A DNA stretch of 57,176 bases, from contig CAIQPS010000014.1 of the NCBI GenBank assembly GCA_903873715.1, positions 1 to 57,176 on the forward strand. The letters are read 5' to 3'. Position numbers and translations under genes: made by a program. This document shows positions 7,116 to 39,572 of the stretch, piece after piece (the first letter of the stretch is position 1; the number at the start of each line of letters is the position of its first letter). The stretch comes from an uncultured Actinomycetes bacterium. GTDB lineage: Bacteria; Actinomycetota; Thermoleophilia; RBG-16-64-13. The notes beneath the pieces were generated by a model. That model did not search any database, had not been told where the DNA came from, and worked only from the letters and a program-made list of their open reading frames with translations.

Positions 7116-7568
7116 ATGTCCCCAGCGCCGGAGATCACAGGCACCACCTCGGTCTTCACCGACAACATCCACTTCGACACCCAGGGTGACGCCGACATGG
7201 TGAACATCACCGAAGAGGTGCGGCGCTGCGTAGCCGCCACCGGCCTGCGGTCCGGCCTGGTCACGGTCTTCGTGCCCGGGGCCACCGGCGCGGTCACCAC
7301 GCTGGAGTTCGAGCCCGGCGTGGTGCAGGACTTCCGGGACCTCTTCAACCACATCGCCCTTCCTTCCAACCACTACTACCACAACGACACCCATCCGGAC
7401 TCGAACGGCCACGCCCACGTGCGGGCCGGCCTTCTGGGCCCGTCCCTGGTGATCCCCTTCGATGACGGCAAGCCCTGCTTGGGCCGCTGGCAGGAGATCG
7501 CCTTCGTCTGCTTCGACAACCGGCCCCGCGAGCGCACGGTCATCGTGCAGTCGTTCGGCGTCCGCTAG
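7116..7568 (+). CDS. yjbQ: YjbQ/UPF0047 family protein
   Basis: A 150-residue protein with the whole UPF0047 signature: HNDTHPDSNGHAH, then LLGPSLVIPFDDG and LGRWQEIAFVCFDN. Members have been described as having weak thiamine-phosphate synthase activity; the physiological role is unclear. Start at ATG 7116 with AGGAAGGAA upstream; an upstream in-frame ATG at 7083 overlaps the previous stop. Between the DUF2520 gene and the HPS/RraA fusion, all on the plus strand. Confidence 0.9.
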   Translation: MSPAPEITGTTSVFTDNIHFDTQGDADMVNITEEVRRCVAATGLRSGLVTVFVPGATGAVTTLEFEPGVVQDFRDLFNHIALPSNHYYHNDTHPDSNGHAHVRAGLLGPSLVIPFDDGKPCLGRWQEIAFVCFDNRPRERTVIVQSFGVR

Positions 7569-7622
7569 ACCCCGCGTTCGAAGCGCCACCCAGCTACAGC
7601 ATTCACTCATAAGGAGCCCTTG

Positions 7623-8918
7623 ATGAAACCGGTGAAGCCCATCCTCCAACTGGCACTGGACTTCGTGGACCTCCCCCGCGCTCTCGCCGTGGCCGAAGAG
7701 GCCGTCGCCGGCGGCGCCGACTGGCTGGAGGCCGGCACGCCTCTCATCAAGAGCGAGGGCCTGCAGGCCGTGCGCGAACTCCATGCCCGCTATCCGGACA
7801 AGGTCATCGTCGCCGACATGAAGACCATGGACGCCGGCCGGGCCGAGGTGGAGTACGCGGCCAAGGCGGGCGCCAAGGTCGTGGGCGTCCTGGGCGCCGC
7901 CTCCGACGCCACCATCAAGGAATGTGTCGAAGCCGCCAAGAACTACGGCGCCGAGATCGTCGTGGACATGGTCCAGGTCGACGACCCCGTGGCCCGGGCC
8001 AAGCAGGCCGAGGAGTTCGGCGCGAGCTACATCGGCATCCACATCGCCATCGACGAGCAGATGCAGGGCAAGACCCCCTGGGACATCCTGCGGGCCGTCA
8101 CCCAGGCCGTGTCCATCCCGGTGACCGTGGCAGGGGGCATCAACTCCCAGACGGCGCCGCTGGCCATCGAAGCCGGGGCGTCCGTCGTGGTGATAGGCGG
8201 GGCCATAACCAAGGCCACCGACGCCACCGCCGCCACCCGGACCATCAAGCAGGCCATCGAGACCCTGACCCCGGCCGAGTCCGAGTTCTTCGTCCGGACC
8301 ACCGGCTCAGACATCCGCGAGATGCTCAGCCGGGTCTCCGCCGCCAACGTCTCCGACGCCCTGCACCGCAGCGGCGATATCCCGGGCGTGCGTCCGCTGG
8401 CCCCCGGGATGAAGTTCGTCGGACCGGCGGTCACCGTCCGCACCTACCCCGGCGACTGGTGCAAACCGGTGGAAGCCATCGACCAGTGCCAGCCCGGCGA
8501 CGTCCTCGTGATCGACGCGGGCGGGGTGCTTCCGGCCATCTGGGGCGAACTGGCCACCAACTCCGCAGTCCAGAAGGGCGTGGCCGGCGTGGTCATCTGG
8601 GGCGCCGCCCGCGACACCGGCGACATCATCAAGATGGGCTTCCCCCTCTTCTCGTCTCTCATATCCCCCACGGCCGGCGAACCCAAGGGCTTTGGCGAGA
8701 TCGGCGTGCCGATCAAACTGAACGGCGTCCGCGTCTCCCCCGGCGACTGGATCATCGGCGATGACGACGGCGTGTGCGTCATCCCCAAGGAGAAGGCGGT
8801 CGAGTACACCAACCGCGCCATGGGCGTCCTCGAGGCGGAGAACCGCCTACGCAAGGAGATACAGGCTGGTGGGACCCTCAGCCAGGTGGGCTATCTGCAG
8901 AAGTGGGAGAAGAAGTAG
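7623..8918 (+). CDS. bifunctional 3-hexulose-6-phosphate synthase / RraA-like protein
   Basis: Residues about 1-215 form an OMP-decarboxylase-superfamily TIM barrel with the DMKTMD (DxKxxD) catalytic motif and GGINSQTAPLAIEAGA phosphate site, matching hexulose-6-phosphate synthase, which interconverts hexulose-6-P with ribulose-5-P plus formaldehyde. Residues about 225-431 are an RraA/4-hydroxy-4-methyl-2-oxoglutarate aldolase-like domain (VSAANVSDALHRSG; GVVIWGAARDTGDI). This fusion is known mainly from archaea and some bacteria. ATG 7623 is used because AAGGAG lies six bases upstream; the TTG at 7620 is not. No hexulose-phosphate isomerase gene is in the window. Confidence 0.9.
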   Translation: MKPVKPILQLALDFVDLPRALAVAEEAVAGGADWLEAGTPLIKSEGLQAVRELHARYPDKVIVADMKTMDAGRAEVEYAAKAGAKVVGVLGAASDATIKECVEAAKNYGAEIVVDMVQVDDPVARAKQAEEFGASYIGIHIAIDEQMQGKTPWDILRAVTQAVSIPVTVAGGINSQTAPLAIEAGASVVVIGGAITKATDATAATRTIKQAIETLTPAESEFFVRTTGSDIREMLSRVSAANVSDALHRSGDIPGVRPLAPGMKFVGPAVTVRTYPGDWCKPVEAIDQCQPGDVLVIDAGGVLPAIWGELATNSAVQKGVAGVVIWGAARDTGDIIKMGFPLFSSLISPTAGEPKGFGEIGVPIKLNGVRVSPGDWIIGDDDGVCVIPKEKAVEYTNRAMGVLEAENRLRKEIQAGGTLSQVGYLQKWEKK

Positions 8919-10980: not shown

Positions 10981-12114
10981 ATGTCGCCATACAAGTGGGG
11001 AATCGGCCTGGACAGATCAGAGACATCGAGGGCGCTCGGGGGTGACACCGCCGTGGCGTCCGGCAACGCCCTGCCGGTGCCGCACATCCATTCGGCCGGA
11101 CGGCGCGTCGGGCGCGTCGCATGGAAGACGGTCGCGGTCCTCCTGTTCATCCTGGTGCCGCTCGCCTGCATCTTCGGGTCGCTGTTCCTGGGGCGCTACC
11201 ACATGACCTTCTCGCAGGTGGTCGGCGCGCTCTTCCCGTTCGCGCACATCTCGGTGCCCAAGCAGGTCTCCACCCTGGTGGTGCAGGTGAGGTTGCCTCG
11301 CGCTCTGGCCGCGGCCTGCGTTGGAGCATCGCTCTCTGCGAGCGGCGTGGCCTTCCAGGGCGTCTTCCGCAGTCCGTTGGTGAACCCCGAACTCCTTGGG
11401 GTGAGTTCCGGCTCGGGTTTCGGGGCTGCCTTCGCGATCGTGGTCCTGGGCGGGGGCTTCGCCATCTATCCCCTCGCGTTCGCCACGGGGATGTTCGCAG
11501 TCTTCATGAGCTACTGGGTCGCCCGGGTCTACAAGAAGACGCCGGCCATCATGCTCATCCTTGGAGGCGTGATCGTCTCGTCGGTCTTTTCCGCGCTGGT
11601 GGGCCTCATGAAGTACGTCGCCGACCCCGAGACCCAACTTCCCAGCATCGTCTACTGGTTGATGGGGTCCCTGTCCGCGGTGAGCTTCGAGCAGTTCTGG
11701 GCGCTGATCCCCATGGGGCTCGGGGTTCTGGTGTTGCTTGCGTCCTCTTGGCGCATCGACGTCCTCTCGATGGGAGACAAGGAGGCCCGTTCCCTGGGCG
11801 TGAACGCCAACGCCTATCGCGGCACCATCGTCGCGGGAGCCACGCTCGCCACCGCCGGAGCGGTCTGCATCTCGGGGGTGGTCGGCTGGGTGGGTCTGGT
11901 GATCCCCCACATCGGGCGCATGATCGTTGGCTCCAGCAACCGAAGGCTGATGCCGGCGTCCATCTCCATCGGCGCGAGCTTCCTCGTCATCGTCGACACA
12001 ATGGCACGCGGCCTCTGGGCCTCGGAGGTGCCTCTAGGCATCCTCACGGCTCTCATAGGCGCCCCCTTCTTCGTGTACCTGCTCAAGAAGACCAAGGGCG
12101 GAGACTGGCGATGA
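10981..12114 (+). CDS. FecCD-family ABC transporter permease
   Basis: Inner-membrane permease of the iron-siderophore/cobalamin/haem uptake class, 377 residues with about ten hydrophobic segments. Family hallmarks: VRLPRALAAACVGASL, GVAFQGVFRSPLVNPELLG, and the ATPase-contacting GVVGWVGLVIPHIGRMI near the C-terminus. The first ~45 residues are hydrophilic and poorly conserved; GTG 11053 behind GGGGGTGA may be the true start. Stop and next start overlap (ATGA). Confidence 0.92.
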   Translation: MSPYKWGIGLDRSETSRALGGDTAVASGNALPVPHIHSAGRRVGRVAWKTVAVLLFILVPLACIFGSLFLGRYHMTFSQVVGALFPFAHISVPKQVSTLVVQVRLPRALAAACVGASLSASGVAFQGVFRSPLVNPELLGVSSGSGFGAAFAIVVLGGGFAIYPLAFATGMFAVFMSYWVARVYKKTPAIMLILGGVIVSSVFSALVGLMKYVADPETQLPSIVYWLMGSLSAVSFEQFWALIPMGLGVLVLLASSWRIDVLSMGDKEARSLGVNANAYRGTIVAGATLATAGAVCISGVVGWVGLVIPHIGRMIVGSSNRRLMPASISIGASFLVIVDTMARGLWASEVPLGILTALIGAPFFVYLLKKTKGGDWR

Positions 12115-39274: not shown

Positions 39275-39293
39275 GTACGCCTTGAGCGTACAC
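39275..39293. repeat. 19-bp palindrome
   Basis: TGTACGC-CTTGA-GCGTACA: 7-bp perfect arms with a 5-bp centre. Operator-like, in the intergenic region upstream of tRNA-Gly (minus) and of the candidate RNA (plus). Cognate regulator unknown. Confidence 0.55.
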
Positions 39294-39304
39294 TGGAATC
39301 CGCT

Positions 39305-39334
39305 GCAAACATGTGCAATCTGCGGCATGTTTGC
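39305..39334. repeat. 9-bp inverted repeat upstream of the ncRNA promoter
   Basis: GCAAACATG (39305-39313) and CATGTTTGC (39326-39334) are perfect arms separated by 12 bp, ending 12 bp before the -35 at 39347. Candidate activator or repressor site. Confidence 0.55.
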
Positions 39335-39346
39335 GGCTCGCGGGGC

Positions 39347-39374
39347 TTGACTCGCATCTCCTGCCGAGTATCAT
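39347..39374 (+). promoter_or_regulatory. strong promoter for the orphan RNA
   Basis: TTGACT (39347-39352), 16-bp spacer, TATCAT (39369-39374). Predicted start near 39381. No plausible ORF with a ribosome site follows. Confidence 0.65.
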
Positions 39375-39380
39375 CATGGA

Positions 39381-39535
39381 CAGAGTCCCGAGAGCTCAGA
39401 CGCAGCATCTGAGGAGCTTACAAGGGGGCCCGCGGAGGAAACGCGAAGGTAAATGGTCGCGGAGTACAGAGAGGCGGGAACAAAGTAAGAGCCGTTGAAA
39501 GATGAAAAGCGAGTCCACTCGGGGCTCGTTTTTTT
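39381..39535 (+). ncRNA. candidate ~155-nt structured non-coding RNA
   Basis: A promoter and an intrinsic terminator enclose ~155 nt without a credible gene on the plus strand; the next plus-strand gene is over 5 kb away. The predicted 5' end GAGTCCCGAG (39383-39392) can pair over ten positions with CTCGGGGCTC (39518-39527) inside the terminator, giving a closing stem that competes with termination. A local hairpin CTCAGA/TCTGAG (39395-39413) and CCGCG/CGCGG (39430-39434, 39458-39462) lie inside. It does not look like SRP RNA, tmRNA, RNase P, 5S or a T-box; a 6S-like RNA or unknown class is possible. Confidence 0.6.
39510..39535 (+). terminator. intrinsic terminator of the orphan RNA
   Basis: CGAGTCC (39510-39516), loop ACTCG, GGGCTCG (39522-39528), then seven T. 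A classical intrinsic terminator, unlike the T-poor hairpins elsewhere in the window. Confidence 0.8.
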
Positions 39536-39572
39536 GTGGCCTGCCGCCCCGCCGGCACCCGACCCGAGCGCT

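Follow-up and report, generated by a model that had tools for sequence, protein, structure and literature searches.

Positions 39347-39535 of the window, by which we mean the whole analysed stretch of 57,176 nucleotides, hold a promoter-like sequence followed by a hairpin with a run of T, which raises the question of whether this segment specifies an RNA that functions on its own and, if so, what kind of RNA it might be. A sequence-only reading of the region had described an orphan RNA whose first bases pair with its own terminator, had likened this arrangement to a regulatory switch, and had leaned towards a trans-acting or 6S-type RNA. The limits of the predicted RNA are given by three elements:

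39347 to 39374, plus strand: sigma-70-type promoter TTGACT-N16-TATCAT, from the promoter scan
39381 to 39535, plus strand: the RNA as modelled (covariance-model positions 1-155), from the model match and alignment A1
39508 to 39535, plus strand: predicted intrinsic terminator, with the hairpin at 39508-39530 and seven T at 39529-39535 (91% of cells paired in the family)

The promoter sequence is exactly where the earlier reading had placed it, with the -35 box TTGACT at 39347-39352, the -10 box TATCAT at 39369-39374 and a spacer of 16 nt, and in a 6-kb scan that found two sigma-70-like sites on both strands (0.4 expected) it is the only one on the plus strand. Judging from the sequence, the transcript would start at about 39380. 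The U-tract of the claimed terminator likewise lies where it had been reported; the hairpin, AGCGAGTCC/ACTCG/GGGCTCGTT, has a folding energy of -12.8 kcal/mol when folded alone and is not listed by the consensus terminator scan. The RNA is indeed an orphan within the window, where no plus-strand gene lies downstream and the next gene, fpg, is convergent. The region had also been said to lack an open reading frame, and a coding gene is rejected by the 28 aligned copies, in which the frames stay open throughout in 3, 0 and 4 copies and none is conserved across the family; no annotated short gene matching the RNA region was found.

Two perfect inverted repeats, GTACGC-CTTGA-GCGTAC (39275-39291) and CAAACATG-N12-CATGTTTG (39306-39313/39326-39333), lie just upstream of the promoter, and each is a possible operator site; repeats at 39275-39333 are not evident upstream of the aligned relatives. 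Read on the minus strand, 39497-39535 presents the terminator hairpin followed by TTTTCATCTTTC, which may serve to end the convergent argS-fpg transcript as well.

The 157 nt from 39379 to 39535 fold more stably than shuffled sequences (z -3.05, compared to -1.31 for the minus strand), and the minimum-energy fold is a closed rod in which the 5' end is paired with the terminator arm. The parts of this rod are as follows:

39383 to 39392, plus strand: 5' arm of the closing stem P1, GAGTCCCGAG, partner of 39518-39527; pairing is 100% across the 28 sequences, and two-sided changes occur at two pairs
39518 to 39527, plus strand: 3' arm of P1, CTCGGGGCTC, common to the terminator (from pairing and alignment)
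39401 to 39403, plus strand: near-invariant CGC, pairing with GCG at 39509-39511
39406 to 39410, plus strand: 5' arm of P3, pairing with 39500-39504; two-sided changes in five of five pairs
39418 to 39421, plus strand: 5' arm of P4, pairing with 39485-39488
39429 to 39433, plus strand: 5' arm of P5, CCCGC, pairing with 39474-39478; two-sided changes in four of five pairs
39434 to 39441, plus strand: internal-loop strand GGAGGAAA, conserved in both Thermoleophilia families
39442 to 39461, plus strand: P6 hairpin CGCGA-AGGTAAATGG-TCGCG with a conserved RRGUAAAnRR-like loop; two-sided changes in four of five pairs
39462 to 39473, plus strand: opposite loop strand GAGTACAGAGAG; the A, U, A and C of AGUAC and the subsequent GA are invariant

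Evolutionary evidence for the closed rod comes from alignment A1, which contains 28 copies from the RNA's own family aligned by sequence alone. In this alignment 97.3% of the cells are paired and 18 of 32 pairs show two-sided changes; the covariation score of 0.324 compares to 0.161 in shuffles and is reached by none of 500 shuffles, and all slid controls give less than half of the pairing. A second family, aligned separately (A3), yields a rod of the same type, in which P1 is extended to 15 bp, and here 97.9% of the cells are paired, 16 pairs show two-sided changes, and again none of 500 shuffles reaches the score. Among 68 members compared at P1, the third pair is GC in 31 and AU in 30, although the comparison is anchored on loose versions of the motif, so that invariant pairs in it mean little. 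The RNA family is real and its fold covaries. Between P5 and P6, GGAGGAAA faces AGUAC...GA nearly unchanged in both families, and the sequence GGAAA opposite AGUAC would fit a bulged-G (loop E/sarcin-ricin-like) module, a pattern familiar from rRNA. Elsewhere the internal loops differ between the families: in the window RNA a 13x13 region is weakly paired and encloses the CGC:GCG pairing, where the second family has small loops only.

The pairing of 39383-39392 with 39518-39527 over ten positions, proposed from the sequence, is confirmed exactly and carries compensatory changes in P1, and what had been spotted as an end-to-terminator pairing is thus a true evolutionary signal and the evolutionary backbone of the molecule. 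The mutual exclusion of closing stem and terminator is also real as a base-pairing potential, and the second family shows it again in another sequence. Compensatory changes had been anticipated in both stems, and only the closing stem bears them (its two two-sided pairs); the terminator stem has no two-sided change in either family although 91% and 98% of its cells are paired, as expected since its 3' arm is tied to P1. When the two folds are forced, the closed form is favoured by 3.4 to 18.4 kcal/mol in all 28 sequences, and the closed rod is likely the mature fold. Fold energies further indicate that the 5' arm has only weak partners until the last ~30 nt are made, so that the simplest order would be terminator first and closed rod later. 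Since every sequence prefers the closed fold and the terminator stem does not covary, refolding after transcription suffices to explain the overlap of the two helices; a regulated switch is not supported, and the idea, while possible, is not needed.

The own genome contains three copies of the RNA detectable by blastn, one of which is cut by a contig end, and blastn finds copies in 17 of 41 related genomes. A covariance model built from the 28 copies of A1 (R1) was run on 399 genomes of the class and has matches in 36, namely all 18 of the own family and 18 of one second Thermoleophilia family, with no match in any other family among the sampled genomes; homologues on this scale place the feature far beyond chance. 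Among named records, the motif occurs mostly in bins of uncultured actinobacteria, of which several are labelled Thermoleophilia or Gaiellales. Genomes of the own family carry 1-7 copies, and the copies are 68-91% identical. The main copy is at the same locus in 18 of 18 own-family genomes, taking tRNA-Gly, csoR or fpg/argS next to it as the criterion (the fpg/argS side only in one genome, at a contig end), and the locus reads hydrolase, csoR, tRNA-Gly(ccc), RNA, followed by fpg and argS on the opposite strand, while some relatives have transporter-like genes inserted. Additional copies adjoin unrelated genes, which makes a cis action on one gene unlikely. In the second family (L067, L068, L070-L072, L074-L076, L078) a divergent second copy stands in tandem downstream of the first RNA; it often lacks a good U-tract, directly precedes an AMIN-like lipoprotein gene (sub-threshold match), and may be a leader form.

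Some paralogs are shorter (71-104 nt), keeping the terminal module and stem while the apical part is replaced. Within 60 nt upstream, 26 of 40 full-length (main) copies have a sigma-70 pattern TTGA/T...TAnnnT (0.6% of random 60-mers) and 7 of 18 variant copies a SigB/F-like pattern of the GTTT-N-GGG or GTTTR-N-GG type (0.1% of random 60-mers), counts that are descriptive, as the patterns were written after seeing these sequences. A SigBFG sigma-factor model has a match in every genome tested and scores above the cut-off in 10 of 13.

We favour, with moderate confidence, the reading that the ~155-nt RNA is a stand-alone structured non-coding RNA, the position-conserved main copy of an undescribed family, which acts in trans and is most likely the RNA component of a ribonucleoprotein recognised via its terminal stem and internal loop. 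The sequence-only reading agrees as far as a structured, stand-alone and probably trans-acting RNA is concerned, and the compensatory changes in the 10-bp closing stem and the lack of an annotated short gene support that part of it. The RNA would be transcribed from its own housekeeping-type promoter and ended by the 3' hairpin and U-tract, and after release the 5' end would most likely take over the 3' arm of the terminator to seal the closed rod. A protein partner would then recognise the terminal stem together with the GGAGGAAA/AGUAC internal loop and its bulged-G-like core, both of them conserved modules. The paralogs would combine the same terminal module with varied apical parts, and some of them follow SigB/F-like promoters; this pattern suggests that a single scaffold is used in a regulated manner. 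The divergent copy directly before the lipoprotein gene in the second family could serve as a leader.

A set of base-pairing regulatory sRNAs would likewise be compatible with the copy number and the variable apical parts; the rod would then be a carrier, and pairing with mRNAs would occur through loops such as RRGUAAAnRR or through those variable parts. We hold this to be possible but doubtful. The separate promoter and terminator and the several paralogs agree with it, and SigB/F-like promoters on some copies would suit stress sRNAs; however, among the unpaired segments conservation is highest in GA-rich ones located in internal loops, that is, purine-rich stretches rather than a free pyrimidine-rich seed, and the part common to the most distant members is a terminal double-stranded stem. 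CsrB/RsmY-type sRNAs resemble the window RNA in several GGA motifs and in weak sub-threshold Rfam matches (RsmY E 0.28, CsrC E 0.029), but a CsrA sponge is disfavoured by the absence of csrA (PF02599), which was found in none of the 18 family genomes and in none of the 4 genomes tested from the second family, and which is present in other families of the class. A Y RNA is disfavoured as well, since a Ro/TROVE protein occurs in one of 41 genomes only, a relative and not the own genome.

Comparison with Rfam, suggested by the earlier reading as a check, gave nothing credible for the window and its relatives, either at the gathering thresholds or at E<10. A 6S- or Ms1-type RNA that binds RNA polymerase, the sigma-70 holoenzyme in the case of 6S and the core enzyme in that of Ms1, is nevertheless worth weighing, for the RNA has a 6S-like length (6S RNA, RF00013, is likewise stand-alone, about 155-190 nt long and found in the same genomes), a closing stem at its ends, a rod shape and conservation across an actinobacterial lineage. 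We consider this unlikely. RF00013 has no match in 39330-39560 at E<10 and the conserved loops differ from those of 6S RNA, while the own genome has a separate Rfam 6S gene elsewhere, as do 17 of 18 family members and all seven genomes with the weak matches described below; the 6S identity leaned towards earlier is therefore rejected. 6S RNA, which templates pRNA, moreover has a large central bubble that mimics an open promoter; where this would lie, the second family shows nothing larger than small internal loops, which counts against the reading, and the window RNA has the weakly paired 13x13 region. Ms1 RNA (MTS2823/scr3559) is also a stand-alone structured actinobacterial RNA of 6S-like outline (PMC9130861), but it is longer, being modelled at 220-235 nt in Streptomyces, is linked to a HAD hydrolase gene and is not listed for Thermoleophilia (PMC9130861); this synteny is absent here, where the neighbours are csoR, tRNA-Gly, fpg and argS, and Ms1 is disfavoured. 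6S RNA has been said to be absent from Actinobacteria (PMC9130861); the Rfam 6S model scores above its cut-off in 31 of 41 Thermoleophilia genomes and 6 of 7 other actinobacterial genomes. In seven genomes one contig carries both the canonical 6S gene and the gene of a SigB/F/G-type sigma factor, about 3-9 kb apart (G000:C129, with 6S at 11536-11691 and the sigma gene at 7438-8112, G006:C28, G004:C96, G022:C121, G032:C5, G520:C1 and G550:C2). The raiA-motif RNA has its own Rfam family and is hence covered by the Rfam scan, in which the window RNA gave no match. It is alike in being stand-alone, deeply conserved and structured, and is reported from Bacillota and other phyla (raiA-motif RNA/ModT, PMC11706538). 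A literature search, in which subscription journals were thinly covered, found no earlier description of the family, which is apparently undescribed.

That the RNA is a cis-acting switch or attenuator, with closing stem and terminator controlling read-through, is quite improbable. The 3' arm common to both helices, the transporter-like genes downstream on the same strand in some relatives, and the lipoprotein gene behind the divergent second-family copy speak for it; against it, the terminator stem does not covary, the closed fold dominates, and no conserved same-strand gene of the kind that marks a riboswitch or leader follows the RNA, the next gene, fpg, being convergent and the downstream genes varying among copies, with the divergent second-family copy as a possible exception. 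Least probable is a mere terminator or repeat element functionless on its own, for which one may cite the several copies per genome and the hairpin readable towards fpg on the minus strand, but which is contradicted by a fold that covaries far from the terminator, promoter-like sequences before most main copies, the 68-91% identity of the copies and the positional orthology of the main copy. A mobile repeat is rejected given the divergence of the copies and similarity that, as reported by blastn (with flanks not systematically covered), is confined to the RNA; for a phage or plasmid origin no matches were found.

A broader covariance model (R2), run on 397 genomes elsewhere in the phylum, gives seven weak matches in other Actinomycetota (E 1e-5 to 1e-3 per genome), where ~0.4 would be expected over the 397 genomes at the cut-off used, the E-values being roughly calibrated. 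The closing stem and the U-tract are common to these matches, a TTGAC box stands upstream of most of them, and by their sequence they are probable relatives. One such family has the RNA in 3 of 3 genomes; another, distant one has it in only 2 of 27, which points either to a patchy distribution at this range or to a model that is not sensitive enough. As a tentative extension, the RNA might belong to an Actinomycetota-wide modular superfamily with a fixed terminal module (a closing stem NCCCRAG...CUYGGG with a U-tract behind it), exchangeable apical domains that differ greatly in length, control by housekeeping or SigB/F-type sigma factors, one common protein on which all members are loaded, and terminator-to-closed-stem refolding as a built-in maturation step.

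Bacterial RNAs that are structured, stand alone and are conserved this widely, such as 6S, SRP RNA, RNase P RNA and raiA, tend to have basic roles. The RNA described here combines strong covariation, presence in every one of the 18 family genomes and stress-type promoter sequences in front of paralogs with the lack of an Rfam match, and in a host lineage known here mainly from metagenome bins it offers a defined target in the search for a protein partner.
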